Source: Amycolatopsis pithecellobii
GTDB lineage: Bacteria > Actinomycetota > Actinomycetes > Mycobacteriales > Pseudonocardiaceae
Assembly (NCBI RefSeq): GCF_009707865.1
Contig: NZ_WMBA01000046.1
Coordinates: 1-64,000, forward strand
DNA: 64,000 nt
Direction: 5' to 3'
This document shows, one piece after another, positions 45,885 through 61,854 of the stretch. Made by a program: the position numbers and the translations under genes. The number at the start of each line of letters is the position of its first letter. Within the stretch, counting starts at the first letter, position 1. The notes beneath the pieces were generated by a model. It worked only from the letters and a program-made list of their open reading frames with translations, did not search any database and had not been told where the DNA came from.

Positions 45885-46487
45885 ATGGCTTGGAACTTGG
45901 CCGGTAGTTACAGCGAAACCTGCTCGTGCGAGCTCATGTGCCCATGCAACATGTCATTCGACCATGGGGCCACCTACGACTACTGCCGCGTGACTCTCGC
46001 CTTCAACATTCGTGAAGGAAAGGTCGAGGGCACGGACATCGCCGGGCGCAAGGTCGTGCTTATCGCCGATACCCCGAAGGTGATGACCGAGGGCAACTGG
46101 CGGGTCGGGGTGTTCATCGACGACGGCGCCACGGACGCGCAGTTCGACCAACTTGTCCAGGTCTTCAGTGGCCAGTTGGGTGGACCCATGGCCGGGCTGG
46201 CCCCACTCATCGGTGAGATGCTGGGCGTTCAGCGCGCGGCAATCGATCTCCGGGATGACGGCTTGCTCCACAGCGTCCACGTGGACGACGTGATCGACTT
46301 CGAGATCGAGGACATCGTTCCGTTCGGTGTGGAGTCCGGTGAGCCGGTGAGGTTCTCGGGGATGTTCCACCCGGTGGGGTCGGATCTGACCATGGCCGAG
46401 GCGAAGAGGACCCGGATCAGCGCCTTCGGCATCGAGTACGAGGGGAAGACGGGCTTGTCGAAGTCGGACTTCTCGTGGGCCGCCTGA
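45885..46487 (+). CDS. DUF1326 domain-containing protein
   Basis: 200 residues. SYSETCSCELMCPCNMSFDH carries four cysteines (CxC and CPC) that suggest metal or cofactor binding, as described for DUF1326. GRKVVLIADTPKVMTEGNWR and the C-terminal ISAFGIEYEGKTGLSKSDFS are also family-like. ATG at 45885 follows CAGGAGGG. It overlaps the next gene by 13 bases. DUF1326 and DUF2182 genes are often paired; their joint function is unknown. Confidence 0.85.
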   Translation: MAWNLAGSYSETCSCELMCPCNMSFDHGATYDYCRVTLAFNIREGKVEGTDIAGRKVVLIADTPKVMTEGNWRVGVFIDDGATDAQFDQLVQVFSGQLGGPMAGLAPLIGEMLGVQRAAIDLRDDGLLHSVHVDDVIDFEIEDIVPFGVESGEPVRFSGMFHPVGSDLTMAEAKRTRISAFGIEYEGKTGLSKSDFSWAA

Positions 46488-47305
46488 GGGGAATCACCGA
46501 CGTCGAGTCGCCTCCCGGCTCGGGTCCAGGTCCCGCTTTCGCCGCTAGCCGCACCCGGTTGGGCTTGGTCGTCGTCCTCCTCGCGCTCGCTGCTGTCGGA
46601 TGGTGGTGGACGGTCCGGGAGACGCGCGGCATGGACAACGGGCCGTGGTCGAGCCCGGGGACATTCGGCTGGTTCCTCGGGGTCTGGGTCGTAATGATGG
46701 CGGCGATGATGTTCCCGTCGGTCTCTCCGACAGTTGCGTTGTACTCGCGCATGAGCAACTCGCGGTGGCTGCCCTTGGCCTTCACCACCGGATACCTCAC
46801 CACGTGGACCGGCGCCGGCGTCATTGCCTTCATGATCGGTGTAGCCGGGCGACATGCAGCGGGCAAAGACCTCGCCTGGGACCACGCCGGGCGCTACATC
46901 GCCGGAGCAACACTCATCGCCGCCGCCGTCTACGAGTTGACCCCCCTCAAGAACGCCTGCCTGGGCAGGTGCCGAAGTCCGCTCGGCACGCTTCTCGGGT
47001 CGTGGCGCGACGGATGGACCGGGGCACTTCGAATGGGAGCCGTCAACGGCGCGTGGTGTGTCGGCTGCTGCTGGGCTCTGATGGCGTCGCTCTTCGCGTT
47101 GGGCGTCATGAGTGTCACCTGGATGGCAGTCGTCGCTGGACTCATCGCGCTCGAGAAGGTCATTCCGTGGCGCAGCGCGGCGATCTATGGAACGACACTC
47201 ATCCTCGTCGTACTGGGCGTGCTCGTACTCGCCGCCCCAGAGGCACTACCCGGTTTTAACGTTCCGGGTGACCCTCAGATGGTGATGACAACGATGGGGT
47301 CCTGA
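46475..47305 (+). CDS. DUF2182 integral membrane protein, predicted metal-binding
   Basis: 276 residues, about seven membrane segments. WVVMMAAMMFPSVSPTVALY is the signature Met-rich helix and KNACLGRCRSPLG plus VNGAWCVGCCWALMASLFAL hold the Cys pairs expected of DUF2182, which suggest copper or other soft-metal binding. GTG start inside the end of the DUF1326 gene implies translational coupling. The two probably form a membrane complex. No signal-specific evidence for substrate. Confidence 0.85.
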   Translation: MGRLRGITDVESPPGSGPGPAFAASRTRLGLVVVLLALAAVGWWWTVRETRGMDNGPWSSPGTFGWFLGVWVVMMAAMMFPSVSPTVALYSRMSNSRWLPLAFTTGYLTTWTGAGVIAFMIGVAGRHAAGKDLAWDHAGRYIAGATLIAAAVYELTPLKNACLGRCRSPLGTLLGSWRDGWTGALRMGAVNGAWCVGCCWALMASLFALGVMSVTWMAVVAGLIALEKVIPWRSAAIYGTTLILVVLGVLVLAAPEALPGFNVPGDPQMVMTTMGS

Positions 47306-47450
47306 GGAATCCAGACTTGGCGTGGAAACGACCGTGAGGCGGGCCCACGTGGCGTCGGTTGGCGCGACCCTGCTGGCCGCGCGGACGTGTCAAGCGAGAA
47401 GCCTTGGCACCCGCTCGTTGGCAGCGGCGGCGTCTCGGAGAGGCGAAGGT

Positions 47451-48974
47451 TCAGTTCACTTGCTTGGTGCGACCTGCCCAGAAGGGCTCACGCAGCAGGA
47501 ACTTCTGGAGCTTCCCAGTTGCGGTGCGTTCCAGGTTCTCCCGAAACTCGATGCGCTTCGGGCACTTGTACCCAGCGAGTCGTTCACGACAGTGCCGCAT
47601 CAGTTCTCCTTCGCCCGCGGCGTTGTCGGCAACGACGAGCGCCATCACCAGCTCGCCCCAGGTCTGGTCGGGAATTCCGATGACTGCCGCTTCGCGGACA
47701 GACGGATGTGACAGGAGCACATCCTCCACTTCGATCGACGAGACATTTTCGCCGCCTGAGACGATGACGTCCTTCTTGCGATCGATGATCGTCAGGTACC
47801 CATCCTCGATCAGACCTCCGTCGCCGGAGTGAAACCAACCACCCTCCTGCGCCGCCGCCGTCTCCTCCTCCATCTCCCAATAGCCGGCCATGCATTGGTT
47901 GGCTTGAGCAAGTACCTCCCCGGAGGCGTCGGTGCGCAGACGAACTCCCAAGGCCGGAGCGCCCTGCCGGCCGAGCAGCCGCGCCTGTTCATCGCGCGGC
48001 TTGTCGCACCACTCGGCTCGCATACGGTTGACGGTCAGTAGCGGTGAGGTCTCCGTCAGCCCGTAGATCTGGATGAACTCCCACCCCAATTCGTCCCTGA
48101 TGCGCTCGATGAGTCTGGTCGGTGGCGGTGCCCCAGCCACGACAGCTCGCACCCGGTCGCGTCCGGGAACGACTCCCTCCCAGTCTTGCGCTGCATCGAG
48201 AACGGCCGACAGGACCGTGGGCGCGGCACACAGGAGCGTCACTCTGTGGGTGTCGATTCTTCGCAGGATCTCCGCGCCATCGACCTTCCGGAGGACTACT
48301 TGCTTCACGCCCATCGCGCTGGTCGCGTATGGCATCCCCCAGCCGTTCGCGTGGAACATGGGGAGTGTGTGCAGATAAACGTCGTCGTCGTTCACGCCAA
48401 CGTGCCACCCGAATGTGGTGGCGTTGAGCCAGAGGTTGCGATGTGTCAGTACGACCCCCTTGGGCTTGGATGTCGTACCGGATGTGTAATTCACCGTTGC
48501 GGCCGCGGATTCGTCGGCTGCCCAGGGATTCGGCTCACCTGTCCTGTTCCATATGTCGTCGTCGTTTTCGCCAAAGACGACGGTGCGCTCTGACATTTCG
48601 GAACTGACGAGATGTGCCAGCTCCGGGTCTACGAAGACCAATTCAGCACCGGACTGCTCGAGGATGTAGTCGACCTCAGGACGAGCAAGGCGAAAGTTGA
48701 CCGGAACCAGGACCCGCCCCCAACACGACACTCCGAAGAAGGAGATGAGGAGCCGAGCTGAGTTCTGAGAGAGGACGGCCACACGAGCTCCGACTGGAAT
48801 GCCCATGTCATCGAGCGCGATTGCCTGGGAGCGGGCGAGCCGATCGACATCCCGATACGTCAGGGTGCCCAGCGATGGTGCGGGTTGGTCAGGTTCATCG
48901 ACAACCGCGACGCGCTCGGGGTAGACCGTGACGGCGCGATCGAGGAAGTCCTTGACCGTAAGCGGGAACTCCAT
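47451..48974 (-). CDS. Acyl-CoA synthetase (AMP-forming)
   Basis: 507 residues of the ANL superfamily. NYTSGTTSKPKGVVLTHRNL is the P-loop A3 motif, QIYGLTETSPL A5, GWFHSGDGGLIEDGYLTIID A7, and RTATGKLQKFLLRE the A10 catalytic Lys region. It activates a carboxylic acid as CoA thioester. The substrate may be medium-chain or aromatic. Last gene of the ABC importer operon, 48 bases after the FAH gene. It would feed the pathway product to beta-oxidation. Confidence 0.9.
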   Translation of the reverse strand: MEFPLTVKDFLDRAVTVYPERVAVVDEPDQPAPSLGTLTYRDVDRLARSQAIALDDMGIPVGARVAVLSQNSARLLISFFGVSCWGRVLVPVNFRLARPEVDYILEQSGAELVFVDPELAHLVSSEMSERTVVFGENDDDIWNRTGEPNPWAADESAAATVNYTSGTTSKPKGVVLTHRNLWLNATTFGWHVGVNDDDVYLHTLPMFHANGWGMPYATSAMGVKQVVLRKVDGAEILRRIDTHRVTLLCAAPTVLSAVLDAAQDWEGVVPGRDRVRAVVAGAPPPTRLIERIRDELGWEFIQIYGLTETSPLLTVNRMRAEWCDKPRDEQARLLGRQGAPALGVRLRTDASGEVLAQANQCMAGYWEMEEETAAAQEGGWFHSGDGGLIEDGYLTIIDRKKDVIVSGGENVSSIEVEDVLLSHPSVREAAVIGIPDQTWGELVMALVVADNAAGEGELMRHCRERLAGYKCPKRIEFRENLERTATGKLQKFLLREPFWAGRTKQVN

Positions 48975-49022
48975 GTTCGTACTCCTGGTTCGTACCTGCG
49001 AGGAACCTCGTGATGCCGCTGT

Positions 49023-49982
49023 TTACGCTGGGGTCCGAGCTTGGTAGATGTCAGCGTCCTGGGCGGGCTGGTACCTGTCGACGACCGTTGATCGCTGCGT
49101 CCCCAGTCCGGTGACTTCCAGGGTGACGACGTCGCCGGGCTTGAGAGGCGAGTGGGCCTCGAGACCCTCGTTGCCCCACGCCTCGGCCAGGCAGCCGCCA
49201 CCGGCCGTGCCGGAGCCGAAGACGTCGCCAGGGCGAACCTCGGTCCCTCGCGAGGCGTAGGCGATCATCTGCCCGTAGCTGAACGCCATATTGGACCAGG
49301 TGTCGCTACCGATGAGTTCGTCATTCACGTAAGCCCGCATGGGAAGGTTGAATGCGTTTCCGCGACGAAAGGGTTCCAGCTCGTCGGGCGTCACGAACCA
49401 GGGACCCATGGTGGTGGCCGAGTCCTTGCCCTTCGACGGCCCCAGACGCACGGTCATCTCCTTGAACTGGACGGAGCGGGCAGACCAGTCGTTCAAGATC
49501 ATGTAGCCGGCGATGAGTTCTTCGGCTTCGGCGACGCTCAGGTCGCGTCCTGCTCCCCCGATCACCGCTGCGACCTCGAGCTCGAAGTCGAACATCGTCT
49601 CGCCGGGCGGGATCTGCACGTCGTCGTAGGCGCCCAAGGTGGCGTACGGGTTGGTGAAGTAGAAGATGGGCGCGGCGTACCAGCGCTCCGGCACCCCGGC
49701 CTCGGGGTCGGCCAGCCGGATCGCGCCCTGGACGTGCTGCTCGAAGGTCATGTAGTCGCGAACAGTCGGTGGCGTCGGGATAGGCGCCAGGACTTCAAGC
49801 CCCTCGACGGCCAGTTCCTCGTCCAATCTCGTCAAGGCGTCCTCACCGGCTCGGCGAAGCGCGACCCCGCCTTCCTGGAGAAGACCCAATAGCGTGACGC
49901 CTTCAGGAAGGGTGTACACCTTGTCGCCGGCGGCGACGGTCAGTCGCTCTATGCCGTTGTGCAAGACGGTCATGAATCGCAT
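49023..49982 (-). CDS. Fumarylacetoacetate hydrolase family protein
   Basis: 319 residues. FDFELEVAAVIGGAGRDLSV gives the Glu metal ligands and MILNDWSARSVQFKEM the Asp; GKDSATTMGPWFVTPDEL and SGTAGGGCLAEAWG are substrate-site loops of FAH-type C-C hydrolases/decarboxylases. Acts on beta-diketo acids with Mg or Ca. ATG at 49982. Between the MBL and acyl-CoA ligase genes. It is intact, unlike the FAH gene of the O-demethylase operon 35 kb away, and might in principle cover for it. Confidence 0.9.
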   Translation of the reverse strand: MRFMTVLHNGIERLTVAAGDKVYTLPEGVTLLGLLQEGGVALRRAGEDALTRLDEELAVEGLEVLAPIPTPPTVRDYMTFEQHVQGAIRLADPEAGVPERWYAAPIFYFTNPYATLGAYDDVQIPPGETMFDFELEVAAVIGGAGRDLSVAEAEELIAGYMILNDWSARSVQFKEMTVRLGPSKGKDSATTMGPWFVTPDELEPFRRGNAFNLPMRAYVNDELIGSDTWSNMAFSYGQMIAYASRGTEVRPGDVFGSGTAGGGCLAEAWGNEGLEAHSPLKPGDVVTLEVTGLGTQRSTVVDRYQPAQDADIYQARTPA

Positions 49983-50007
49983 GTGGTGTCCTAGTCGATC
50001 GAGTCGG

Positions 50008-50943
50008 TCAAACTGAGGTCGCGAGGAGCGCCTGGTTGTACTGCACTGCGTCTTCGAACGCCGCGAAAAGGTCGAACTTCCAATCCGAGATCTCTGCGTA
50101 GGCACGGTGCAGGTTGAGCACGACACGCTCGGCATCAGGGAGCGTCGCGAAGTCGCCGAGCTCGGTGCGCTTGGCCGCCTCGAGCGGCGAGAGTCCTGAT
50201 GCGATTCCGCTCTCGGCTGCGGATTGGATCAGCCGGTAGTAGTTGCGGTGCGACTCCAGAACCGTCTGGAGTTCTTGGCGCTCGAGTACCTCTCCGTGGC
50301 CAGGGACGATCACGCTTGCGTCGAACTCAGCCATCCAGTCCAGGCAGCGAAGCGCGCCGTCGAGTGACCCCATGAAGACCAAGGGCGTCACATCGTGAAA
50401 CAGCAGGTCACCTGTAAACAGCACCCCGGCTGTCGGGACGAATGCAACCGAGTCGCCGGTGGTGTGTGCGGCATAGCCGGGATGAACGACATGTACTTCG
50501 GTGCTTCCGCTGTGAAGGACCAGTCGGTCCTCGTAGGTGACCGAAGGAAGCCGCTTCGTGACGTTTCCCCAGTCCGGAGGCGGGCTCCAGAATGGCGGGC
50601 ACGCGTCAATAATGGTGTCCTCCGCCAACCCGGCCCGCATCTGCGAGTGGCCGACGATGCTCGTAGTGCTCGGGAGCAGGCTGTTGCCGTGCGTGTGGTC
50701 CCCGTGCAAGTGGGTGTTCACGGCGAATCGAATCGGTGATTCGGGCCGCACAGCGTTTACCTGTTCCAGGAGCCGGCGGGTGCGCACTTCGGTGGCGCAG
50801 GTGTCGATGAGTATGTCGCCGTCGTCACCCGCGACCAGACCAGCGTTGTTGATCCACCACGAACCGTCACCCTGCGTCCAAGCCCACACCCTCGGCGCAA
50901 CCTCGGAAAGGGCGCCATCCCCAATTTCGGATTGAGTGCTCAA
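50008..50943 (-). CDS. MBL-fold metallo-hydrolase
   Basis: 311 residues. NTHLHGDHTHGNSL contains the complete HxHxDH metal motif, HPGYAAHTTGDSVAF the third His, LFTGDLLFHDV the bridging Asp and VIVPGHGEVLE the last His: a binuclear zinc hydrolase. TTG start with GAAGGAAA upstream. Groups with cytoplasmic lactonases and alkylsulfatase-like hydrolases. Possibly opens a lactone or thioester. Downstream of the ABC permease by 54 bases. Confidence 0.87.
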   Translation of the reverse strand: MSTQSEIGDGALSEVAPRVWAWTQGDGSWWINNAGLVAGDDGDILIDTCATEVRTRRLLEQVNAVRPESPIRFAVNTHLHGDHTHGNSLLPSTTSIVGHSQMRAGLAEDTIIDACPPFWSPPPDWGNVTKRLPSVTYEDRLVLHSGSTEVHVVHPGYAAHTTGDSVAFVPTAGVLFTGDLLFHDVTPLVFMGSLDGALRCLDWMAEFDASVIVPGHGEVLERQELQTVLESHRNYYRLIQSAAESGIASGLSPLEAAKRTELGDFATLPDAERVVLNLHRAYAEISDWKFDLFAAFEDAVQYNQALLATSV

Positions 50944-50997
50944 TTGCGTTTCCTTCGTTTCGTCACGACTGCCGGCGATTCCCGAACGGCGTGGCCC

Positions 50998-51984
50998 TCA
51001 ACCGCTGCGCCGTGCTTGCACGTCGATTGCCGCGGCGATCAGGATGATGCTGCCGTAGACGATGTTTCCGTAGAGCGGATCCAGGTCGAGGAGGTTGAAC
51101 CCGTTCTCGATAAGCGCAAGGAAGAGAACACCGACAACGGTTCTCCATACCGCTCCGTCACCGCCCCGGATACTGGTTCCGCCTACCACGACAGCCGCGA
51201 TGCTGATCAGCACGAGGTTCGATCCGGCCGTGACCGGTACGCTGCCTGACTGTGACGCCGACAGAATTCCGGCGATTGCCGCTCCGAGTCCGCTGATGAC
51301 GAACGTCGCCATCCGAATTCCGGTGACCGAGACACCTGAGAGTTGAGCAGCGAGGGCGTTGCCGCCGGCCGCGTACATGTATCGGCCGTAGATCGTCCGC
51401 GCCAGCAGGTAGCCGAGCAAGACTACCCAGCCGATGAACACCCAGGTCATCAGATCGAGCCCGAGAAATTGTCGAGCTGACAGGGTGATGAAATCGACGT
51501 TGGTGGTGTTGGAAGTCCGCCCACCGGTGACGACGAGAATGACGCCGCCCATGACCAAGCTCGAGGCGAGCGTTGCGATGAAGGAGTTCACTCCGAACTT
51601 CGTGACAATAACGCCGTTCACCGTGCCCAGCAGCATTCCGGTGAGCATGCCGGCGGCAATTCCCAGTATCAGCGGATGATTCTCGACCACCCTCACCGTC
51701 ACGATTGCCGAGGCGGCGAACATCGCTCCCACCGATAGGTCGAAGTTGCCCGCCACGATCAGGAGCGTTGCCGCGCATGCCATGATGCCCAAGATTGCTG
51801 ACTGGCTGGCAACATTCCGCAGGTTGAGGACCGTGAGGAAGTTGTCGGCGGCGATGGACAGGTAGACGAAGAGCGCGACCGCCAACAGGAGGACGGCGTA
51901 CTCACGGACTACCTTGGCCAGCGAGCCACTTCGTGACCCGGTCCGGCCGGTCGACGCGATGTCGATCTCCTGACTAGTCGTCAC
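50998..51984 (-). CDS. ABC transporter permease (RbsC-like)
   Basis: 328 residues, eight to ten membrane helices. GVIVTKFGVNSFIATLASSL and GGTSIRGGDGAVWRTVVGVL are the conserved loops of the ribose/autoinducer-2 permease family. It pairs with the RbsA-type ATPase, whose stop overlaps its GTG start (GTGA). Carries a pentose, sugar-like or small hydrophilic solute. Also a candidate for importing a glycoside or other nutrient of the catabolic cluster. Confidence 0.92.
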   Translation of the reverse strand: MTTSQEIDIASTGRTGSRSGSLAKVVREYAVLLLAVALFVYLSIAADNFLTVLNLRNVASQSAILGIMACAATLLIVAGNFDLSVGAMFAASAIVTVRVVENHPLILGIAAGMLTGMLLGTVNGVIVTKFGVNSFIATLASSLVMGGVILVVTGGRTSNTTNVDFITLSARQFLGLDLMTWVFIGWVVLLGYLLARTIYGRYMYAAGGNALAAQLSGVSVTGIRMATFVISGLGAAIAGILSASQSGSVPVTAGSNLVLISIAAVVVGGTSIRGGDGAVWRTVVGVLFLALIENGFNLLDLDPLYGNIVYGSIILIAAAIDVQARRSG

Positions 51985-53531
51985 GATGCCACCGCCGTTC
52001 CGAACGCGTGTCCGAGGATCACGTCCGCGGACAGCGATCCGTCTGCATCTGCAACCTCACCCACTATCTGACCCCTTCTCATGACCAAAACGCGGTTCGC
52101 CAACCCGATGACCTCTTCGAGTTCTGACGAGATGATCAGGACGGCCATGCCCTGCCGCGCCATTTCGGATATGAGCTCGTAAATTCGTGCCCTCGCGCCA
52201 ACATCGACACCCTGACTCGGCTCGTCCGCGATGAAGATCTTCGGCGAGGTCATGAGCCATTTCGCGAACATGACCTTCTGCTGATTCCCACCGGAAAGTG
52301 TTCCCACGGCTGCGTTCGCGGCCGATGCTCGTACGCCGACCTTCGCCAGCATTTCGTTGGCGGAGTCCCGCTCCTCGCGTCTGCGAACTCGCGTCAGGGC
52401 AGCAAGGCGGCGCAACCGCGGAAGACTGACGTTCTCGGTCACCGAGCGTTCCAGCATGAGTCCGAGCTCCTTGCGGTTCTCGGGAAGCATGGCGATACCA
52501 GCGTTGATTGCTCGTCGCACCGAGTTGATTCGAATGGTCTCACCATTGATCTGGATGGTGCCATCGTGGGGGTCAGCGCCAAAGATCGCGCGGGCCAGCT
52601 CACTGCGGCCACTCCCGACAAGACCGGCGACACCGAGGATCTCGCCTGGCCAGATCTCGAGGCTGATGCTTTCAAGACCCGACGCGGAACCGAGATCCAA
52701 GACGCGCAATGCGGGCGTCCCCCTGCGGTCCGGCGTGATCTTTGCCGGGTATTCCGAGGCAAGGCTCTGTCCCGTCATCGAGGTGACGAGGGAATCGGGT
52801 GTCTCGTTTCCCGCGGAACCGGTTCGCACGTATCTCCCATCGCGGAGAACCGTGATGTTGTCGCAGACCGCCAAGACTTCGTCGAGATGATGCGACACGA
52901 ACACAATCGTTCGACCCTCCGCGGCCAGACGGCGGGTCGCGGCGACAAGCTGCCGTGCCTCGTCGGAACTCAGTGCGGCCGTCGGTTCGTCCATGACGAT
53001 GAGTCGTGCGTCGCGGGCGACTGCCCGGAGAATCTCTGCCTTCTGCTGTTCACTCTTGCGGAGCGCCCCCAGCCGAGCGTTCGGGTCGAGCGAAAACCCG
53101 ACTTGCTCACTCAACTCGAGGAATCGCTTCCGCAACTGCTTCCGGTTTACTGCAATTCCACGCCGGGGCTCCTGCCCGAGCATTACGTTCTCGGCGACTG
53201 TCAGGTAGGGCACTACAGCGAGTTCCTGCGCCACGATCGAGATGCCGTGCGCCAGAGCTTCTGCGGTGCTTCGAAGCCGGATCGGCTTGCCATCGACCAT
53301 TATCTCGCCGGCGTCCGGGGCAACCACGCCGGCGATGATCTTGCCCAACGTCGACTTGCCGGCGCCGTTCTCGCCACACAGGCCGCGAATCTCCCCCGGC
53401 TCAACGGTGAGCGATACGCCTTTGAGTGCATGGATCGCGCCGTACCGCTTCTCGACCTCGTTGACGGTGAGAGCCAACCCCCGGCCCGTAGCTGAGGGCT
53501 GGCTGCTCGCAGTTCCGACGAACGTGTTCAC
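51981..53531 (-). CDS. Sugar-type ABC transporter ATP-binding protein (RbsA-like, two ABC domains)
   Basis: 516 residues with two nucleotide-binding domains. Domain 1: GLCGENGAGKSTLGKI Walker A, LRKSEQQKAEI signature, LIVMDEPTAAL Walker B. Domain 2: GVAGLVGSGRSELARA (degenerate Walker A as in RbsA), LSGGNQQKVMFA, IFIADEPSQG. GTG start overlaps the binding-protein gene stop, and it is coupled to the permease downstream. Energises uptake with the neighbours. Confidence 0.93.
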   Translation of the reverse strand: MNTFVGTASSQPSATGRGLALTVNEVEKRYGAIHALKGVSLTVEPGEIRGLCGENGAGKSTLGKIIAGVVAPDAGEIMVDGKPIRLRSTAEALAHGISIVAQELAVVPYLTVAENVMLGQEPRRGIAVNRKQLRKRFLELSEQVGFSLDPNARLGALRKSEQQKAEILRAVARDARLIVMDEPTAALSSDEARQLVAATRRLAAEGRTIVFVSHHLDEVLAVCDNITVLRDGRYVRTGSAGNETPDSLVTSMTGQSLASEYPAKITPDRRGTPALRVLDLGSASGLESISLEIWPGEILGVAGLVGSGRSELARAIFGADPHDGTIQINGETIRINSVRRAINAGIAMLPENRKELGLMLERSVTENVSLPRLRRLAALTRVRRREERDSANEMLAKVGVRASAANAAVGTLSGGNQQKVMFAKWLMTSPKIFIADEPSQGVDVGARARIYELISEMARQGMAVLIISSELEEVIGLANRVLVMRRGQIVGEVADADGSLSADVILGHAFGTAVAS

Positions 53532-54574
53532 TGCGTGTACTCACCCTTGAAGCCCGGGAAGTCCTGGAGGTTCTTCTGGGTCATGGCGAGCGGAAGGCCC
53601 GCCGCCTGCAGGGGATTGACCGAGGTGGGAATCTGCTTCCCGTGCACGGCATCCGCCGTGAGGCCCAGCGCGATCTTCATCTCCGTGGCGGGCAGATTGA
53701 TCGTCGAACCGTAAATCTCACCGCGCCGCATAGCCGCCATGACTTCCTCACTGCCTCCGGCCGTCGCGATCAGGACGTCCTTGCCGGGCACCAGTCCCTG
53801 CGCCTTCAGCGCGGTGATCGCTCCCGACGTTCCCTGCGTCGCGTACGACAGGATGAGGTCGAGCCCGGGGCTCTTTTGGAGGAAGGTCTTTGTAGCCGCT
53901 ACGGCCGCTCCGGTATCGGTCTCACTCGAGATCTCCCCAACGATCCTCATGTTGGGGTTCGTTTTGATCGCCGCGCTCAGCTTTTCGTCGATGATCGCGT
54001 CGCCCTGGGGGAGGCTGTTCGTGGTCCGCAGCCACCCGATCTCACACGGGTGCCTGTCGGCGCATGCCGGGATCACGATGTCGTTGATGAGGGTGTCGAT
54101 CTGCGTGTCGAGCGGGACGAGGACCTGCGACAGAACACCGGGAGTCGTGGGCGCAGCGGTAGAGGTGTCGGTCCCGATAGGACCGAACATGCCGAGCACA
54201 GGAATACCTGCAGCCTTGGCCGCCGTTGCGCAAGCCACGCTCGCGGAGGGGATCGCGGAGTTCACCAAGATCGCGTTGTACTTGCCCGAAGCGATCGCGT
54301 CCTTGCACGAGGAGACGGTCTTGGCCGGGTCGAACACGGCGTCGAACATCGTCGCCTTGATCCCGAGCTTGGCCGCCTCGCTCTCCATCGCGTCATTCCC
54401 CGCGACGCAGTACGGCGCAGCGGTGCAGTTGAGTACCGCGACACTGACCTCAGCGGCAGCGTTGCCCTTGGGCGTCTTCGAATCGGGTGCACACCCGGCC
54501 AGGGCAATCGTGGACGCGAATGCCGCAATGACCACGAACTTCTTGGTCCACTGATTGATTGAGAAGTAGCTCAC
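53528..54574 (-). CDS. Periplasmic-type sugar-binding lipoprotein
   Basis: 348 residues. A lipobox LAGC puts the lipidated Cys at 28, after the hydrophobic segment FVVIAAFASTIA. The body is a type I periplasmic-binding fold: AILVNSAIPSASVACATAAK, VLGMFGPIGTDTS, IVGEISSETDTGAAVAATKT and VLIATAGGSEEVMAAM. GTG start with AGGAGC. First gene of the six-gene unit to 47451, with the 23-bp motif 103 bases upstream. Ligand unknown, probably a sugar or polyol-like solute. Confidence 0.92.
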   Translation of the reverse strand: MSYFSINQWTKKFVVIAAFASTIALAGCAPDSKTPKGNAAAEVSVAVLNCTAAPYCVAGNDAMESEAAKLGIKATMFDAVFDPAKTVSSCKDAIASGKYNAILVNSAIPSASVACATAAKAAGIPVLGMFGPIGTDTSTAAPTTPGVLSQVLVPLDTQIDTLINDIVIPACADRHPCEIGWLRTTNSLPQGDAIIDEKLSAAIKTNPNMRIVGEISSETDTGAAVAATKTFLQKSPGLDLILSYATQGTSGAITALKAQGLVPGKDVLIATAGGSEEVMAAMRRGEIYGSTINLPATEMKIALGLTADAVHGKQIPTSVNPLQAAGLPLAMTQKNLQDFPGFKGEYTQ

Positions 54575-54676
54575 TGTTGCTCCTATGCATGGCGGCTATC
54601 CCCAGATCCACCCTCGCGAAAGTCGGACTGTTGTTGCATCGGTCACCGGACGCTAAGCCGGCTCTGTGACGGCAAC

Positions 54677-54699
54677 CACACCCTGCTGGAGCCACCCAC
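54677..54699 (-). promoter_or_regulatory. 23-bp regulon motif, copy B
   Basis: CACACCCTGCTGG then AGCCACCCAC. Matches copies A (60670) and C (56717) at 18 or more of 23 positions. It stands 103 bases upstream of the binding-protein start, in the same orientation to the gene as the other copies. Confidence 0.75.
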
Positions 54700-54741
54700 C
54701 GACCACATGCGGGTCACATAGACAGCCCCGACAGGGAGGGA

Positions 54742-56544
54742 TCAGGCAGGAGGGACGATAGGAAGCAGCAGGTAGGAGGCATGCTGCCCGCCAGAGTGCA
54801 GGGTCACGGGCTGTCCGTATACGGCCGCTGATCGCGCGACGGGATCGTCGTGAACATTCACACCCGATCCCCGCATCTCTACGCCGTAGGCCGTCGGAAG
54901 TCCCTGACCACCGTGGTCGTAGTCGCGTCCCAGGACGCTAAGGCCGATTCGGTACCCAGCCGGGACAACGATGCATGTAGGCCAGATCTCGACGTCTACC
55001 TCGTACACCTGCCCGGGCACCAGCGGCGCCACCTTGTCGTGCGAGTGCGCCGGCCTGTGAGCGAGCGTCCGCGCCAGGTCCAGCTCCCGGTGGGACGCGC
55101 GGAGCCAGCCTTGAGATAGCGGATGCCTCGGCTCGCTGGCGCCCTCGAAAAGCACCTCGATTCCGTCAAAGTCGTAGAGATGCATCACGAGAAAGAGATC
55201 GGCGTCCTCGCTCGCAGAGGAGATGAACAACTTTGCCGCGATCGGCCCGGTGATCTCCGTTGCCTCCTGGAACGGCGGTGACATCAGCGTCACGCCTGCG
55301 CCGAAAGGCTGGTAGGAGATCGTGGACGCCTCATCCGCAGGCTCGAGCGACAGAGCATGGTCGGCAACGTCCAGGTAGTACTTGGTCCAACTGGTTCGAG
55401 CCAGCGGCCACTCGCCCTCGCCCCGAAGTTCGAAGACCTCGCCCGGGTAGCGAATGTTCAGCGACACTGCCGGCTGCTCATCGGGCCAGTCTCCTTCGCC
55501 CTTGAGGAAGTAGTCGAAGAATCGCTTCTGCAGGTCGACACCATAGGCCGAGTAGTACAGCGTCCAGTGCGCTTCTCCGTGCACCTCCAGCCACTTGTGC
55601 TCCGAGGCCGACTCGGTGAAGCCGTCGATGTTGCCCCTTAGATGCAGGGCCTGCCCACCCCAGTTGCCAGCCGACAGCACCGGCACCTCGACGCTCGAAA
55701 GATCCGCACTTCGGTCCTGCCAGTAGGAGTCGAACAGAGGGTGCTGACGAAGCTCCTCAGCCACGTCGGCACGGTTCGCCATGAGCTCGTTCTCGTCGAG
55801 ATCGACATCGCCCGCTGCGAGCACTCCGAAGTGCGGGTGCCGACGGCCACGGCTGCCGACGCCGTGCTGCACCGACTCGATCTGCACCCCATAGAGGCGT
55901 GGGAAGAACGAACTTGGGATGCCGCCATGGTAGTTGGCGTCCCGGTACCAGTCCGCCACACCTTCCCAAGGACAGATCGCGGCCAGGTGCGGTGGTCGAA
56001 GGGCCGCAACCTGCCACTGATTGATGGCGTAGTAGGAGATCCCGCTGAGTCCGACCTTGCCATTGGACCAAGGCCGGCTTCCGGCCCATTCGATGCACTC
56101 GTAGTAGTCCCGGGCTTGTTGTGGCGAGAAGCAGTCAACGAAGCCGGGAGAGCGGCCAGATCCTCGGGAATCGACGCGGACCAAAACGTAGCCGAAGGGT
56201 ACCCAACGTTCGGGGTCGGCAACTTCCCAGGCCAGGTGCTTGCCGGTCGTTCCTTCAAGGATCTCTGGATGTGCCTCCACCATTGCAGCGAACTGCACGG
56301 GGTAGGCCTCCTGGAAGCTCAGGTCCTTTCCGTAAGGCCCGTAGCTCATGAGCACCGGATACTGGCCTCCGCCGAGCGGACGGTAGACGTTGGCTCGCAG
56401 AACCGTTCCGTCAGACATCGCCAGGGGCACATCTCGCTCGACCCACATGCCGTCGGACTGCGAAATCTGCGCCTCTGCCTCACCGCTTCCGGCTGGGAGC
56501 GGCGGATGAGCAGTCGGGCGAGCCGGCCGAGCGGATGAAACCAT
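54742..56544 (-). CDS. CocE/NonD family hydrolase
   Basis: 600 residues. VDSRGSGRSPGFVDCFSPQQ and NGKVGLSGISYYAINQWQ (nucleophile Ser167 in GxSxxS) are the alpha/beta hydrolase core of the X-Pro dipeptidyl-peptidase/CocE group. The C-terminal jelly-roll domain (X-Pro_dipase C) covers about 390-600. It hydrolyses esters or amides. No signal peptide, so cytoplasmic. Its own copy of the 23-bp motif lies 172 bases upstream. In this cluster it would cleave an imported ester or amide. Confidence 0.9.
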   Translation of the reverse strand: MVSSARPARPTAHPPLPAGSGEAEAQISQSDGMWVERDVPLAMSDGTVLRANVYRPLGGGQYPVLMSYGPYGKDLSFQEAYPVQFAAMVEAHPEILEGTTGKHLAWEVADPERWVPFGYVLVRVDSRGSGRSPGFVDCFSPQQARDYYECIEWAGSRPWSNGKVGLSGISYYAINQWQVAALRPPHLAAICPWEGVADWYRDANYHGGIPSSFFPRLYGVQIESVQHGVGSRGRRHPHFGVLAAGDVDLDENELMANRADVAEELRQHPLFDSYWQDRSADLSSVEVPVLSAGNWGGQALHLRGNIDGFTESASEHKWLEVHGEAHWTLYYSAYGVDLQKRFFDYFLKGEGDWPDEQPAVSLNIRYPGEVFELRGEGEWPLARTSWTKYYLDVADHALSLEPADEASTISYQPFGAGVTLMSPPFQEATEITGPIAAKLFISSASEDADLFLVMHLYDFDGIEVLFEGASEPRHPLSQGWLRASHRELDLARTLAHRPAHSHDKVAPLVPGQVYEVDVEIWPTCIVVPAGYRIGLSVLGRDYDHGGQGLPTAYGVEMRGSGVNVHDDPVARSAAVYGQPVTLHSGGQHASYLLLPIVPPA

Positions 56545-56716
56545 GGTGACCTGTCCTTAGAGTGTGCCGAGAAAGTCGCGACGGGTCTGAAGCCGCAGAT
56601 TGCGGGCTCGCATCAGCCGCCCACGCTTGTGGACCAACATCGGATCGAAAATGGAAATGCTGGGAAAAGAATCGTTTTCGACCCTGCGCAACGTAGTTCT
56701 TCATTGAGAGGGCAGC

Positions 56717-56739
56717 CACGCCCTGATGAGGCCACCCGC
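56717..56739 (-). promoter_or_regulatory. 23-bp regulon motif, copy C
   Basis: CACGCCCTGATGA then GGCCACCCGC. 173 bases upstream of the CocE start and just after the XRE regulator stop, so it can serve only the hydrolase. Confidence 0.7.
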
Positions 56740-56751
56740 ACTACTCCGCCG

Positions 56752-57627
56752 CTACAGGCCGCCCTGACGGCGCGGGGGAGTCTCTTGCTGCCGTCTCGCC
56801 TCGCAGAGGGATCTCAACACGCCTAGCGCCTGTTCTGCGACAGCGTTACGCGCCGAGTAAACCGTGAGGTGGCGGTCGAACGGACCCGGAAGGTGGACCG
56901 CGTCATAGAGGAGCTCGATCTGACCAGCAATGGGGTGTTCGAAGATTCGCGTGCCGAAATTTCGCCCGAGGACGTCGTGGGACGCCCATAGCCGGGCGAA
57001 GGAGTTGCTCCGCAGCGACAGATCGCCGACCAATTGCACCATCCGCTGGTCGTTCGGGTGCCGGCCGGCTCCACCCCTGAGGACCGCGACATTCTGGCGG
57101 GCGACATCGCCCCACTGCACGCACCGGGATCTGACCTGGGGATTGGTGAACACCAGCCACGAGAGATTGCGGTGGTGCGGAGGAAGCGATGCGAAGTCGA
57201 TCAGCATCTCGGCCGCCATATCGTTCCAAGAAGTGATGTCCAGTCGATGGTCGACCACCAGTGCCGGGCGGTCGTTGATGGCATCGACCAGTCGCGCACC
57301 GACGCTGTCCGGCGCTCCGTCCAGGTCCGGGCTATCCGCAACACTCCCACCCCGCAGCAGCGCCGCCAGATCTTGCACGTACATCGCCTCATCGCTCGAG
57401 AGCAGAAGCGCTGAGGCGACCGACTCAAGCACCTCCAGTGACGGGTTGAGCGCCCGCCCCTGCTCGAGCTTCGTGTAGTACTCCCGGCTCACCGCAGCCT
57501 TCTCCGCAACCTCCTCACGGCGTAGGCCCTGGGTTCGCCGGCTGCCGGCGTCGCCGATGGGGCCCAGACGTTCGCGACGGGTGCGCAGGAAGTGCCCCAG
57601 CTCCTTCGCGACATCCGTTCGCTCCAT
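56752..57627 (-). CDS. XRE/MmyB-like transcriptional regulator
   Basis: 291 residues from the ATG at 57627. LGHFLRTRRERLGPIGDAGS and RREEVAEKAAVSREYYTKLE form the XRE helix-turn-helix, and WLVFTNPQVRSRCVQWGDVA is part of the MmyB-type C-terminal ligand domain. Same architecture as the regulator at 2731-3606. It is in the SDR-ADH-isomerase unit, so it would be autoregulated through the 23-bp copy A. The best candidate to bind all three motif copies. Confidence 0.88.
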   Translation of the reverse strand: MERTDVAKELGHFLRTRRERLGPIGDAGSRRTQGLRREEVAEKAAVSREYYTKLEQGRALNPSLEVLESVASALLLSSDEAMYVQDLAALLRGGSVADSPDLDGAPDSVGARLVDAINDRPALVVDHRLDITSWNDMAAEMLIDFASLPPHHRNLSWLVFTNPQVRSRCVQWGDVARQNVAVLRGGAGRHPNDQRMVQLVGDLSLRSNSFARLWASHDVLGRNFGTRIFEHPIAGQIELLYDAVHLPGPFDRHLTVYSARNAVAEQALGVLRSLCEARRQQETPPRRQGGL

Positions 57628-57674
57628 CCAGTCAGTATGCACCTGACAAAACGGGTCAACCTGGGAGTTCAAGC

Positions 57675-58553
57675 TCATCGCGAACGCTTCTGCCACAGCC
57701 GATCGAACCCCTCCTGGCTACGCTCCAGCAGTTCCGCAGGCCGCAGTTTCCAGAGCGAGTCTGGGAAGTCATGTCCCCAGCGCCCATCGTCGGAGAAGAT
57801 CTCGAGCTCGTACCAACCGGCGTACCCGCCGCGCTGCAGCGCCCCGAATATCGCGGGAAGGTCGATAACCCCTTCGCCAGGAATTCGGCGGTCGGCGAGT
57901 GAGCGAGGCGGATCCGGCCAGTCGCAAACCTGGACGAGGTAGGTCCGTCCGGCCAACTGCTCCGTGAAATGCAGAACGTCAGGAGAGTCCCAGACGTGAT
58001 AGACGTCGTAACACAATCCGACATTCGGTTCGTCGACAAGGTCAATGAACTGACCTGCTTCGGACAGCGTCCGAATGAACGACGCGTCGAATCCCAGATC
58101 TCCGCGCACTACTTCGACGGCGATCCTCGTCCCCAGGTCGGCAGCAAGCCGTGCAGCATCCCGGATACCCTCGGCAGCGATGCTCCACGACTCGTCTTTC
58201 GAGTACCCGGCGTCCGATCCGGTAGTCATGACGATGCAGGCTGGCTTGAAGGCTGCGAGTCGTTCGACCGACTCACGCATCAGGCCAATACGAACGGACG
58301 GATCGTCAGGCCCCGGGTACATGACCGGGGGCCGCAGCGGCAGCGGTGCAAGGTTGGCCGGGATCCCGCCGGCGACCTTGAGGCCACTTGTCTTCAGTCG
58401 TGCCAACTGCGCCTCGTCTTCGCCCGGGCGCAGCTTTCCCTCTGCGATTCCGATACCTGATGCACCCGACGCGAGAACCAAGTCGAGGTCTTCCTCAAAA
58501 CTCGTGTCGGGCATCGTCAACGGGCAGACGGAGTAGAGCGGGGTGTTGGTCAT
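57675..58553 (-). CDS. Sugar phosphate isomerase/epimerase-like TIM-barrel protein
   Basis: 292 residues. The xylose-isomerase-like AP endonuclease 2 fold: IAVEVVRGDLGFDASFIRTL, NVGLCYDVYHVWDSPDVLHF (Asp and His metal ligands), LVQVCDWPDPPRSLADRRIP and AGWYELEIFSDDGRWGHDFP (last Glu). Likely a metal-dependent sugar, inositol or ketose isomerase/dehydratase. AAGGAG is upstream, though distant. In one unit with the dehydrogenases. Relatives include inosose dehydratase and hydroxypyruvate isomerase. Confidence 0.85.
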   Translation of the reverse strand: MTNTPLYSVCPLTMPDTSFEEDLDLVLASGASGIGIAEGKLRPGEDEAQLARLKTSGLKVAGGIPANLAPLPLRPPVMYPGPDDPSVRIGLMRESVERLAAFKPACIVMTTGSDAGYSKDESWSIAAEGIRDAARLAADLGTRIAVEVVRGDLGFDASFIRTLSEAGQFIDLVDEPNVGLCYDVYHVWDSPDVLHFTEQLAGRTYLVQVCDWPDPPRSLADRRIPGEGVIDLPAIFGALQRGGYAGWYELEIFSDDGRWGHDFPDSLWKLRPAELLERSQEGFDRLWQKRSR

Positions 58554-58628
58554 GATTCGTGGTACTCCTTGGAACGAACAACAGCACAGAAATTGATTTG
58601 AGGGCATCCGGTCAGGTGCGAAACGTCC

Positions 58629-59672
58629 TCAGTTGGAGTAGTCGAGCAGCACCGCAAGAGTCTCGTCGGCATGCTCGTCGATCAGCCGGTACGCGTCCGG
58701 AGCATCCCCGAACCGGACTCGGTGCGACACCAGCCGGTCGACGTCGAAGTTCGCAAGTCGATCAGTGGCGTGGACGTACCGGCGCTCCCAATCCCAGCGC
58801 GGCTGCAGCCCTGACCCGATCGAACTGACCTGGCTGCTCACGATCCGCTGACGACGGAAATGGAACTGCAAGCCGAGCTGAAGAGTCACGGGCTTGGCTC
58901 CGTAGAAGGACAGGACAGTGATCGTCCCCTCCTGGCCGGTGTTGTCGATGGCTGACTGCAGCGCGGCCGGCGCCCCGCTTGCTTCGAACCAGATGTCGTT
59001 GCCTCGCCCGCCGGAGAGCTCAGCGACCGCAGCCGCGGCCTCGTCCGGAGAAACGACCGCATCTGCACCGATCCAAGACGCGCGCTCACGGCGATTGGGC
59101 ATCGGGTCGACGAGGATGAGCTTGCCGGCGGATTCACGGCACAGATGCGCAACGAAGGTGCCGATGACGCCGAGGCCCGAGACGACGACCACGTCGCCAA
59201 CCCGTACCGGCGTGTCCAGAAGGGCCGTATACGCCACGCTGAACAGGTTGGTGAAAGCCGCCTGCTCCGAGCTGGCATCGCGATGGACTGGGAAAACGAG
59301 CCCCGAGGAGACTCCGCCCATGACAAACCGCGCCTGGTGGGGGTGGTACGCGAACACGCGGTCGCCGACCGAGAAGCCCGACTGGTCACCAGCCGCTTCA
59401 ACCTCGCCCACGATCTGGTAGCCGAACTTGAGTGGGAACGGAAAGGTACCCCCGGTCGTGGGGAGGTCGACTGCGTCGGCCGAACCTGCATTCCCGTGGT
59501 AGACGTTCATCTCAGTGCCGGAACTCACCAGGGAAGTAACGGCGCGGACACTGATCTCCGCCGGCCCTGGCGATCCAATTCGTTCGCTGCGGAGCTCGAC
59601 CGTCTGAGGGGCGACGAACCAAACGGCTCGAGCACCGTCGCCATCAGCTCCGCCAGGCACACTGGTGTTCAT
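58629..59672 (-). CDS. Zinc-type medium-chain dehydrogenase/reductase
   Basis: 347 residues of the MDR superfamily. VVVVSGLGVIGTFVAHLCRE is the Rossmann glycine loop, LVDPMPNRRERASWIGADAV the cofactor specificity region. It lacks the four-Cys structural zinc loop of classical ADHs, and the N-terminal catalytic zinc ligands are not obvious (SLVSSGTEMNVYHGNAG), as in the BchC/sorbitol-like subgroup. Oxidises a sugar-like alcohol or a cyclitol. Co-transcribed with the SDR and TIM-barrel isomerase. Confidence 0.85.
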   Translation of the reverse strand: MNTSVPGGADGDGARAVWFVAPQTVELRSERIGSPGPAEISVRAVTSLVSSGTEMNVYHGNAGSADAVDLPTTGGTFPFPLKFGYQIVGEVEAAGDQSGFSVGDRVFAYHPHQARFVMGGVSSGLVFPVHRDASSEQAAFTNLFSVAYTALLDTPVRVGDVVVVSGLGVIGTFVAHLCRESAGKLILVDPMPNRRERASWIGADAVVSPDEAAAAVAELSGGRGNDIWFEASGAPAALQSAIDNTGQEGTITVLSFYGAKPVTLQLGLQFHFRRQRIVSSQVSSIGSGLQPRWDWERRYVHATDRLANFDVDRLVSHRVRFGDAPDAYRLIDEHADETLAVLLDYSN

Positions 59673-59745
59673 GTCGTAGTTCCTCTACTCGTCAGTGAGC
59701 TTCTCTCGTCTGCATACCGATTTCCTGCCGCTTTGCTGGGGATGG

Positions 59746-60588
59746 CTATTTGCCCGAGAGCCCGGCGTCAATGATGAGGGCCGTGCCAGTGACCCGTCGG
59801 GACTCGTCGGAGGCCAGGTAGAGGGCACCGTCGGCGAGATCCTCGGACTCGATCCACGGCACGCCGAGGGGGTGCGTCTTCGCGAGGATGTCGAGCATTC
59901 CCTTCCGTCGCACCTCCGGAGGCGCGTCCTCTTGTCCGGGTGTGAACAGGGCCCACATGACCTCGTTGTCCATCATCAGCGTGTTGACCGCCGTGGGCTG
60001 CAGGGTGTTGACACGGATACCGTGGGGTCCGAGTTCGAGCGCGAGTTCCTTGCACATGCCAATCAGGCCGTGCTTGGTGGCCGAGTAGTGGGCCATGTTC
60101 CCGACTCCGCCGGCGACCACACCGGAGGTGGTGAAGATGAGGGAGCCACCCTTGCCGGCCTCGATCATGGACGGAATGACTGCCTTCGCTACGCGCCAGG
60201 TTCCCGTCAGGTTGATGTCGATCTGCGTCTGCCAGTCCGCCTCGGTGATCTCCCACCCAGGCGCCAGCAACGTCACTCCGGCGTTGCCTACCAGCACATC
60301 GATATGGCCGAATGCTTGCAACCCATCGGCGATGATCTTGTCGACGTCGTCGCTGTTGCGCACGTCGCCCTGGTGTGCGACGACACGACGACCGATGCGC
60401 GAGACCATCTCGATTGTCTCGGCGAAATCCTCTTCCGTTGCCCCTGGGTACCGCACGCCCGGGATCGGTCGACAGATGTCGAGCATGATGATGTCGGCAC
60501 CCTCCTCGGCCAGTCGCTTCGCGTGCGCTCGCCCCTGACCACGTGCCGCACCGGTGATCAGTGCTACCTTGCCGTCCACTCGTCCCAT
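59746..60588 (-). CDS. Mycofactocin-coupled SDR family oxidoreductase
   Basis: 280 residues. VALITGAARGQGRAHAKRLA gives the cofactor loop; the insertion DICRPIPGVRYPGATEEDFA after strand 2 is diagnostic of mycofactocin-coupled SDRs, which hold NAD tightly and pass electrons to mycofactocin. VLVGNAGVTLL, TTSGVVAG and HYSATKHGLIG carry the Asn, Ser, Tyr and Lys. ATG at 60588. First gene of the unit with copy A of the 23-bp motif. No mycofactocin biosynthesis genes are in the window. Confidence 0.85.
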   Translation of the reverse strand: MGRVDGKVALITGAARGQGRAHAKRLAEEGADIIMLDICRPIPGVRYPGATEEDFAETIEMVSRIGRRVVAHQGDVRNSDDVDKIIADGLQAFGHIDVLVGNAGVTLLAPGWEITEADWQTQIDINLTGTWRVAKAVIPSMIEAGKGGSLIFTTSGVVAGGVGNMAHYSATKHGLIGMCKELALELGPHGIRVNTLQPTAVNTLMMDNEVMWALFTPGQEDAPPEVRRKGMLDILAKTHPLGVPWIESEDLADGALYLASDESRRVTGTALIIDAGLSGK

Positions 60589-60669
60589 GAACACAGACCT
60601 TTCGTCGGGCCGCGCCGTCGGCCCCTCGTGATGTTGGGCATGAGCCTATGAGCGAGGTGTGACGCCAGG

Positions 60670-60692
60670 CACACCCTGTTAGAGCCACCCAC
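60670..60692 (-). promoter_or_regulatory. 23-bp regulon motif, copy A
   Basis: CACACCCTGTTAG then AGCCACCCAC. 82 bases upstream of the SDR start. The same sequence with few changes stands before the ABC importer operon and the CocE gene. Confidence 0.75.
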
Positions 60693-60740
60693 AACCAACA
60701 GGTCTGTGGTCGACGAAGGTCCAGGCTTCCGCTCAGGCGA

Positions 60741-61235
60741 TCAGAGGACGAGCACGAGTTTGCCGCCGGGCCGGCGGGACTGGCTGAGCTTGGCCGCCTC
60801 CTGGATCTGGTCGAGCGGGTAGGTGCGCGCGACCGCTACGGCCAGGATCCCTTGCCGGCCGCCGGGCGAACTCGTCCATCTGGTCGTAGCGCATCCCGAT
60901 TTGGGTGACCCGGGTACCCAGCTCGGCCGCGGCGGCGAAGTCGGAGACGGTGAGGACGTGGTCCGGGTCCCCGGTCAGCTCGACCAGCGTCGGTAGCGAG
61001 CCGCCCGCGGGGCCGGCCTGGTCGGCGCGGTCGATCCGGCCGCCGGTCGGGGCCGTGCCCAAGCCGCCATCAATGCGTACTCGGCGGCCCCGGCCGTTGG
61101 CCCGTCCCAGGTCGCCGGGCCGAACACACGTTCGCCGATTTCGATGCCGGTAACGCCCTCCGGCGCCGGTTTCGGGACATCGCGGAGCACGATCACGTCC
61201 GGGGAGCCGAACCGGTCGAACTGAAGGGCCTTCAT
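60741..61235 (-). pseudogene. Quinone oxidoreductase-type MDR gene, internally deleted and frameshifted
   Basis: ATG at 61235 with AGGAGATC upstream begins MKALQFDRFGSPDVIVLRDV, the usual start of NADPH:quinone reductase-like MDRs. About 45 residues are lost before VTGIEIGERVFGPATW. After a frameshift the sense resumes as VELTGDPDHVLTVSDFAAAA, and the C terminus ARTYPLDQIQEAAKLSQSRR through GGKLVLVL is in a further frame. The Rossmann glycine loop is missing. Divergent from a TetR gene that is also broken. Confidence 0.85.
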
Positions 61236-61252
61236 GACGATCTCCTGGAATG

Positions 61253-61272
61253 ATGACAGCATCTGTTGTCAT
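61253..61272. promoter_or_regulatory. TetR operator candidate
   Basis: ATGACA (61253-61258) and TGTCAT (61267-61272) in the short divergent spacer between the broken oxidoreductase and TetR genes. Confidence 0.5.
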
Positions 61273-61284
61273 ATCCTCGCGGGT

Positions 61285-61854
61285 ATGCCGAGATGGGAGT
61301 CCGACGCACAAGGCCGGCTCGAGCGCGCGGCGCTTGAGCTGTTCGAGACGCAGGGGTTCGAACGCACCACGGTCGCGCAGGTCGCGCGGACCGCCGGTCT
61401 GACCGAGCGCTCCTTCTACCGCTACTTCCCCGACAAACGGGAAGTCCTCCACGCCGACCAGGAGCTCGAGGCCCACCTCGTCGCCGGCGTCGAGGCGGCC
61501 GACCCGGGCCTCACACCGATCGAGGCACTGCTGACCGCACTCGGGACCGCTGACGAGGTCTTTCGCTCTCGGGAGATCCTGCTGCGCCGGGTCAAGGTGA
61601 TCGCCGCCAGCCCGGCACTGGCGAGCGTGACCTGATCAAGCTCGCCAACCTCGCCGACGCGCTGACGCGGGCCCTCGAGGGCCGCGGCGTCGAGACCGGC
61701 CAGGCACGTTTCATCGTCGGCGTGGTGATAGCGATCTCGCGGCGCGCCATGTCGCGCTGGCTGGCCGACCCGGACGCGCCCTTCACCGAGCTCGTCGCCC
61801 AGGCCGCCGCCGAGCTACACGAGGGGGTCGCGCCGCTAGCGGCGGTGCGCTGAT
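61285..61854 (+). pseudogene. TetR family regulator with a single frameshift
   Basis: MPRWESDAQGRLERAALELF through RTAGLTERSFYRYFPDKREV is a normal TetR DNA-binding domain. The first frame ends with TGA at 61633-61635 after ASPALASV. One base out, the next frame supplies DLIKLANLADALTRALEGRG through WLADPDAPFTELVAQAAAEL to the TGA at 61852-61854. A single indel near 61620 separates them, so this may be a recent mutation or a sequencing error. The divergent partner is broken too. Confidence 0.8.

Follow-up and report, generated by a model that had tools for sequence, protein, structure and literature searches.

The window analysed here, the first 64,000 nucleotides of contig NZ_WMBA01000046.1 of Amycolatopsis pithecellobii (assembly GCF_009707865.1), carries eleven genes on the minus strand in three units, each of which is preceded by a copy of the same promoter element (Table 1). 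The first unit encodes, in this order, an SDR, an MDR-family dehydrogenase, a TIM-barrel protein and an MmyB-like regulator. The second consists of a CocE hydrolase gene, and the third runs from the solute-binding protein, ATPase and permease of an ABC importer to a metallo-beta-lactamase-fold (MBL) hydrolase, an FAH hydrolase and a CoA ligase. A preliminary description of this region had proposed that the importer, an esterase, an isomerase, two dehydrogenases, a C–C hydrolase and a CoA ligase form one regulon joined by a shared motif. The genes it listed are present and the motif joins the three units, but the MBL-fold gene, the mycofactocin coupling of the SDR and a fourth, unlinked member of the regulon had escaped it. 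Together with the results below, this points to a real regulon of four promoters that two actinobacterial lineages have kept along with the genes it governs.

Table 1. Genes and promoter element copies of the regulon in the window.
Feature	Position	Strand	Remarks
Mycofactocin-coupled SDR	59746–60594	minus	TIGR03971 343.8 bits, cut-off 300; ATG 60588 likelier start
MDR-family dehydrogenase	58629–59672	minus	without GHE zinc motif
Xylose-isomerase-like TIM-barrel protein	57675–58607	minus	AP_endonuc_2
MmyB-like regulator (HTH_31 + MLTR_LBD)	56752–57627	minus	last gene of SDR operon; frame open to 57696
CocE/NonD-family alpha/beta hydrolase	54742–56544	minus	TIGR00976; Peptidase_S15 + PepX_C
Solute-binding protein	53528–54574	minus	Peripla_BP_4, without sugar-type Asp-Gly
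Double-domain CUT2-type ABC ATPase	51981–53531	minus
CUT2-type permease	50998–51984	minus	BPD_transp_2
MBL-fold hydrolase	50008–50943	minus	HLHGDH present, TTG start
FAH-superfamily hydrolase	49023–49982	minus	PF01557 169.7 vs 23.9 bits
Acyl-CoA ligase (AMP-binding)	47451–48974	minus
Promoter element copy 1 (SDR operon)	60670–60691	minus	–10-like TAGGCT at 60643–60648
Promoter element copy 2 (CocE)	56717–56738	minus	–10-like TACGTT at 56690–56695
Promoter element copy 3 (transport and catabolic operon)	54677–54698	minus	–10-like TAGCGT at 54650–54655

The three copies have the places and the common orientation given in the preliminary description, and they lie 82–173 bases upstream of the three units when ATG 60588 is taken as the start of the SDR (gene starts at 54574 for the binding protein, 56544 for CocE and 60594 or 60588 for the SDR). 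A repeat search of positions 45500–62000 returned them as the first direct-repeat family, 35 nt long, with 77% and 86% similarity to the reference copy. Their plus-strand letters, at 54677–54697, 56717–56737 and 60670–60690, are CACRCCCTG-N-T-RRR-GCCACCC; the corresponding minus-strand sequences are GGGTGGCTCCAGCAGGGTGTG, GGGTGGCCTCATCAGGGCGTG and GGGTGGCTCTAACAGGGTGTG. Eight copies, four from this genome and four from Aeromicrobium endophyticum (see below), align without gaps over 54 nt with 18 invariant columns. The element at the four promoters of this genome can be written TGGGTGGCTC-N3-CAGGGTGTGG-YTG-N-C-N-TC-N-CA, followed by a TA-N3-T box. The pattern letters proposed earlier hold for the three window copies, but neither the T nor the uninterrupted stretch of purines is present in every other copy. 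The box stands at one fixed distance in seven of the eight copies; all eight have T45, and seven each have A46 and T50. If it is a –10 box, the core of the element would lie at about –54 to –34 with conservation until –22, and the hexamers found 17 nt ahead of the box (e.g., TGGTTG, TGGCTG, and TGCCTG; read by eye) would be poor –35 boxes. The element also contains the direct repeat GGGTG-N9-GGGTG. An alternative sigma factor was set aside by eye as the core is too far from the box, and an RNA element was likewise set aside because the inferred start site is downstream of the core.

Allowing up to three mismatches, the window consensus has 29 matches in the 7.9-Mb assembly compared with 67 for a reversed control, and since the control gives more matches the weak ones are background. 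Three of the 29 are exact, all of them in the window, and one on another contig (C55) has a single mismatch, so that the motif is not the frequent genomic repeat that the preliminary description had named as a reason to give up the regulon; two matches with two mismatches look intragenic when judged by eye. When all eight sites were combined in a sequence-only profile, it found the four genome sites with E < 1e-9, the next best match having E = 1.9. As this profile had been trained on the sites it scores, we also used a matrix of the three window sites only (simple base-composition background), which gave p = 3.2e-15 (E about 5e-8) for the unlinked site and E values of 1e-10 to 0.005 for the Aeromicrobium sites. 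A relaxed exact pattern matched 12 of 390 genomes of the family, with four sites in this genome and one in each of the 11 others; its reversed control matched scattered genomes and not this one. In 395 other genomes of the phylum the promoter model, under strict filters, yielded no convincing match, a single partial one (30 nt, E 6e-4) being taken as chance by eye. The element is therefore found at four places of the genome only and is not a chance repeat.

By scanning a genome collection with the binding protein, a search that detects close relatives only, we found one further locus, in Aeromicrobium endophyticum M2KJ-4. All eleven genes are present there in the same order and orientation, with 75–85% protein identity in the best segments. 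The unit boundaries fall at the same genes, and the flanks differ (a threonine dehydratase and a transketolase/PDH-E1-like gene in Aeromicrobium). The window-only pattern has four copies in Aeromicrobium where 0.05 are expected, and none of 100 shuffles reaches four. These copies precede the SDR, CocE and binding-protein genes, as in the window, and in addition the MBL gene; in the rest of the Aeromicrobium genome there is no site with fewer than two mismatches. Positions 1–36 of the orthologous promoters are identical at 30, 26 and 30 positions, whereas fourfold-degenerate sites agree at 41% (CocE), 48% (CoA ligase) and 48% (ATPase) between both genomes and the leaders after the block are 55–70% alike, compared with 49–52% for shuffled sequence. 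Thus, the block is held by selection. The binding protein itself was found in its own genome only among 150 genomes of the family (1e-40, at most 14 candidates per genome scored) and among 396 genomes of the phylum (1e-30, at most five candidates per genome scored). We suggest that the 11-gene unit was probably acquired as a whole.

Around the unit several further features were seen. A tRNA gene is a usual insertion place for such a unit; in Aeromicrobium a tRNA-Met gene (positions 3709–3785 of the stretch L057) stops some 150 bases short of the first promoter block. The window has a tRNA-Arg gene (45645–45718) 1.7 kb beyond the other end of the unit. A second tRNA-like match in L057 (6833–6922) overlaps coding sequence and was taken as false. 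Beside the SDR promoter, positions 60733–61850 of the window hold remnants of an MDR gene on the minus strand and a TetR gene on the plus strand; both seem to be interrupted by frameshifts or stop codons and are possibly a scar beside the acquired unit. Beyond the other end (45582–47305) a DUF1326 frame is followed by a PF09948 gene (PpoB2, copper chaperone); the tRNA-Arg gene overlaps the start of the long frame, so the true start of the DUF1326 gene lies further on. The CocE leader after the promoter block is 141 nt long in both genomes (window 56545–56685; L057 7879–8019) and has conserved blocks such as TCGATCCGANGTTGGTCC that could be a second control element.

The fourth copy lies on contig C55, with 57 bases between its end and the start of a frame of 467 amino acids that codes for an amidohydrolase of the ATZ/TRZ type (Amidohydro_1 domain; PRK08204 subfamily, 422.9 vs 391 bits; HxH at residue 66). 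Its best solved match is 7ww2, an 8-oxoguanine deaminase/hydroxydechloroatrazine ethylaminohydrolase. The frame overlaps by 4 bases with a second CocE-type gene whose product is 53% identical to the window CocE. The two genes that follow the copy fit the proposed regulon and speak for it. A third CocE-like gene is found beyond an SDR and a TetR gene of the other strand.

The enzymes belong to known families. For CocE the TIGR00976 score is 249.5 bits (cut-off 66.3) and the nearest solved relative is 3ib3. Membership of the FAH protein in its superfamily is certain, and it scores below the cut-off of all seven NCBIfam models listed for specific enzymes. In line with the mycofactocin-coupled SDR, this genome encodes mftC (TIGR03962, 653.9 vs 265 bits), and mftC is above the cut-off in both genomes carrying the cluster and in none of 14 controls. 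Similar sets of enzymes recur elsewhere. The Rhodococcus opacus VOC-14 plasmid brings together homologues of FAH, CoA ligase, SDR, MBL and a pair of amidohydrolases, of which one has a short frame, and has MFS and CoA-transferase genes with them. On contig C78 of the same Amycolatopsis genome (L024 and L089, 1–24000) an MmyB-like gene is found with genes for an amidohydrolase, two MBL proteins, FAH, an AMP-ligase, an MDR, a P450, a Fer2 reductase and an MFS transporter. Relatives of CocE occur in 383 plasmid records, and three of the five fetched have an annotated FAH-family gene near; in the Shinella and Aminobacter records no such gene is near in the fetched stretch. The enzymes make up a loose recurring module.

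Which protein reads the element? Within the conserved 11-gene unit no transcription factor was recognised besides the MmyB-like protein, which the preliminary description had already named as the likely regulator and whose gene lies in one run with the SDR and MDR genes. It has an N-terminal XRE helix–turn–helix domain (PF13560, 42.9 bits, cut-off 27) and an MmyB-type ligand domain (PF17765, 154.5 bits, cut-off 26.3), and its closest PDB relative is MltR (3pxp). In Aeromicrobium, whose genome keeps the motif too, the protein is 79% identical over 283 residues. Among 19 genomes of the genus, its own included, nine have a match at 1e-50; as the other matches listed are 41–43% identical, no orthologue was found in the 18 congeners. 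At 1e-80 none of 396 other genomes of the order has a match (five candidates scored per genome). The MmyB-like protein is the best candidate and most likely binds the element. Another stretch of the window (2746–3468) is 34% identical to the regulator.

The direction of control is less easily decided. MmyB is described as switching its gene cluster on, pseudo-palindromic B-boxes have been suggested as its target, and the 16 paralogues of Streptomyces coelicolor are reported to adjoin antibiotic-related or SDR/MDR genes (PMC3406030). XRE proteins in general are described as repressors or activators (PMC12565409). We prefer activation on account of the position of the element: poor –35 hexamers with the core upstream at a fixed distance represent the usual place of an activator. 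The strongest alternative is the same regulon under a repressor, in which the MmyB-like protein would cover –54 to –22 and block RNA polymerase, to be released by a pathway compound. The conservation that extends past the –35 region into the spacer and the ability of XRE proteins to act either way speak for it; nevertheless, given the promoter anatomy and the description of MmyB as an activator, we regard repression as less likely.

Several observations weigh against a regulon of four promoters that the MmyB-like protein switches on. The position of the element also fits a repressor. The only two genomes with both regulator and motif share the whole cluster, so that co-occurrence does not single out the regulator. 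An XRE dimer is expected to read a clear pseudo-palindrome, and the element has only a weak dyad, TGTG-N8-CACA, with 84.4% of cells paired and neither covariation nor compensatory change, so that its symmetry is putative. In the CocE copy of Aeromicrobium the box is shifted one base further (TACGGT). Unlike Aeromicrobium, the window has no copy before the MBL gene, and the unlinked amidohydrolase has no orthologue in Aeromicrobium (best 34%) and is hence not part of the core. The promoter model has no match in the C78 cluster or the R. opacus plasmid. A search for direct repeats in the C78 cluster gave nothing convincing.

The importer has the full CUT2 architecture of binding protein, double ATPase and BPD_transp_2 permease, and the preliminary description had expected a sugar-like solute. 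The binding protein does not support this expectation. In sugar-binding proteins the Asp of a D-G motif holds the sugar in the pocket; at this place 2fn8, 2ioy and YtfQ have D-G and our protein has TAGG, with Gly-Gly in both the window and the Aeromicrobium orthologue. Among 13 plasmid relatives that were compared, the six best-scoring (from Streptomyces, Devosia, Nonomuraea, Paenarthrobacter, Rhodococcus qingshengii and Agrobacterium vitis) lack the Asp as well. D-G is retained in the remaining seven, and six of these also have L-D-R at a second site. All four Asp-less relatives with annotated neighbours in the fetched stretches have hydantoinase/oxoprolinase genes near, and in the unannotated Streptomyces record an amidohydrolase and an SDR gene stand before the ABC genes. 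Neither of the two D-G relatives fetched with wide flanks has a hydantoinase nearby; next to one of them are genes for an aldose epimerase and an FGGY sugar kinase, and the other has no telling gene. From the loss of the Asp and these neighbours, the window protein belongs with a class linked to the breakdown of cyclic amides or ureides, at 24–34% identity, which is too distant to name the ligand. In addition, the importer misses the curated cut-offs for sugar transporters: the ATPase stays under the cut-off of every sugar model among the 25 listed, its best score being 477.3 vs 689 bits (AraG), and the binding protein reaches at best 37.9 vs 510 bits (YtfQ). Six cysteines besides the lipobox-like one (50, 56, 90, 115, 171, and 177) are kept in both orthologues (window 53528–54574; L057 10001–11056) and may form disulfides.

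An ordinary cluster for the use of a sugar or cyclitol could still be proposed from the CUT2 architecture, from the weak resemblance of the TIM-barrel protein and the MDR to sugar or inositol enzymes, and from a fold search that returned sugar-binding proteins; the model used (mean pLDDT 62) informs on the fold and not on the ligand. Set against the Gly-Gly of both orthologues, the Asp-less best relatives with their hydantoinase neighbours, the sugar-kinase surroundings of a D-G relative and the ATPase scores, such a cluster is improbable and sugar import is unlikely. We also see little room for the proposal that the element is read by a regulator encoded elsewhere while the MmyB-like protein controls something else. 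The direct repeat is atypical of XRE dimers, but the MmyB-like gene and the motif occur in the same two units, and outside them both searches came back empty (0/396 order genomes for the protein; 0/395 phylum genomes for the promoter model beyond the partial 30-nt match). Finally, a chance or repeat-derived similarity, for which one could point to the single relaxed-pattern copies in 11 of 389 other family genomes, is negligible in view of the mismatch counts, the profile and window-only matrix scores, the Aeromicrobium shuffles, the promoter conservation relative to fourfold sites and, above all, the independent copies in Aeromicrobium, which already contradict it.

Thus, we consider it likely that the locus is a catabolic regulon in which one element at four promoters is served by an MmyB-like activator and whose substrate is a non-sugar ester or amide. 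The MmyB-like protein would bind the stretch between about –54 and –22 relative to the inferred start, beside the poor –35 box, and on sensing a pathway compound would turn on the promoters of the SDR operon, the CocE gene, the transport and catabolic operon and, on C55, the amidohydrolase and second CocE genes. As its gene belongs to the SDR operon, it would also control its own synthesis. The eleven-gene set probably takes up and breaks down a compound, for which our preferred reading is a non-sugar molecule that contains ester or amide bonds. The importer would take it in, CocE and the amidohydrolase would cleave the ester or amide bonds, the mycofactocin-coupled SDR and the MDR would oxidise alcohols, the MBL and FAH proteins would hydrolyse the product, FAH at a C–C bond, and the ligase would form a CoA ester. 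More tentatively, and with somewhat less than even confidence, we propose the whole as an undescribed, horizontally moving pathway for such a compound that combines a CUT2-type importer branch adapted to a new ligand class, mycofactocin-dependent oxidation and an MmyB-like activator whose operator is defined from two distant genomes. No description of the regulon was found in the open-licence papers searched; the regulon is new and its parts are known.

MmyB-like regulators are numerous in actinomycetes. Eight natural copies and a matched pair of proteins now allow an operator to be proposed for this one, which makes binding, inducer and direction of control testable together. The regulon also draws attention to a catabolic module of amidohydrolase, CocE, MBL, FAH, CoA ligase and mycofactocin SDR, found repeatedly and with importers of different kinds. 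Moreover, a branch of the CUT2-type binding proteins that are annotated as sugar transporters may not bind sugars.

When comparing the regulon with known systems, the regulator resembles the MmyB/MltR family (Streptomyces MmyB; Chloroflexus MltR, PDB 3pxp) in its combination of helix–turn–helix and MLTR_LBD domains and in its place beside SDR/MDR genes, but here it belongs to a catabolic operon and is tied to a 34-bp element with only a weak dyad. The importer shares with the CUT2 importers of the ribose/YtfQRT type the Peripla_BP_4 binding protein, the double ATPase and the BPD_transp_2 permease; it differs in the replaced Asp-Gly, the hydrolase and CoA ligase neighbours and the one permease gene. 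With the hydantoinase-linked CUT2-type importers on plasmids of Devosia, Paenarthrobacter, Rhodococcus qingshengii and Agrobacterium vitis (binding proteins 24–29% identical) it has the lost Asp and the one permease in common; the window unit is distant from them in sequence and has no hydantoinase/oxoprolinase gene. The enzymes are like those of the R. opacus VOC-14 plasmid (FAH 56%, ligase 65%, SDR 42%, MBL 33%, amidohydrolases 34% and 30% identical) and of C78 (MmyB 36%, FAH 51%, MBL 38%, amidohydrolase 27%), where an MFS transporter replaces the ABC importer and, on C78, a P450 and a reductase are added. Variovorax and Rhodococcus ruber plasmids have a CocE gene (50–52% identical) near an FAH-family gene, in their case with cyclase or beta-keto acid cleavage genes and with other transporters and regulators.

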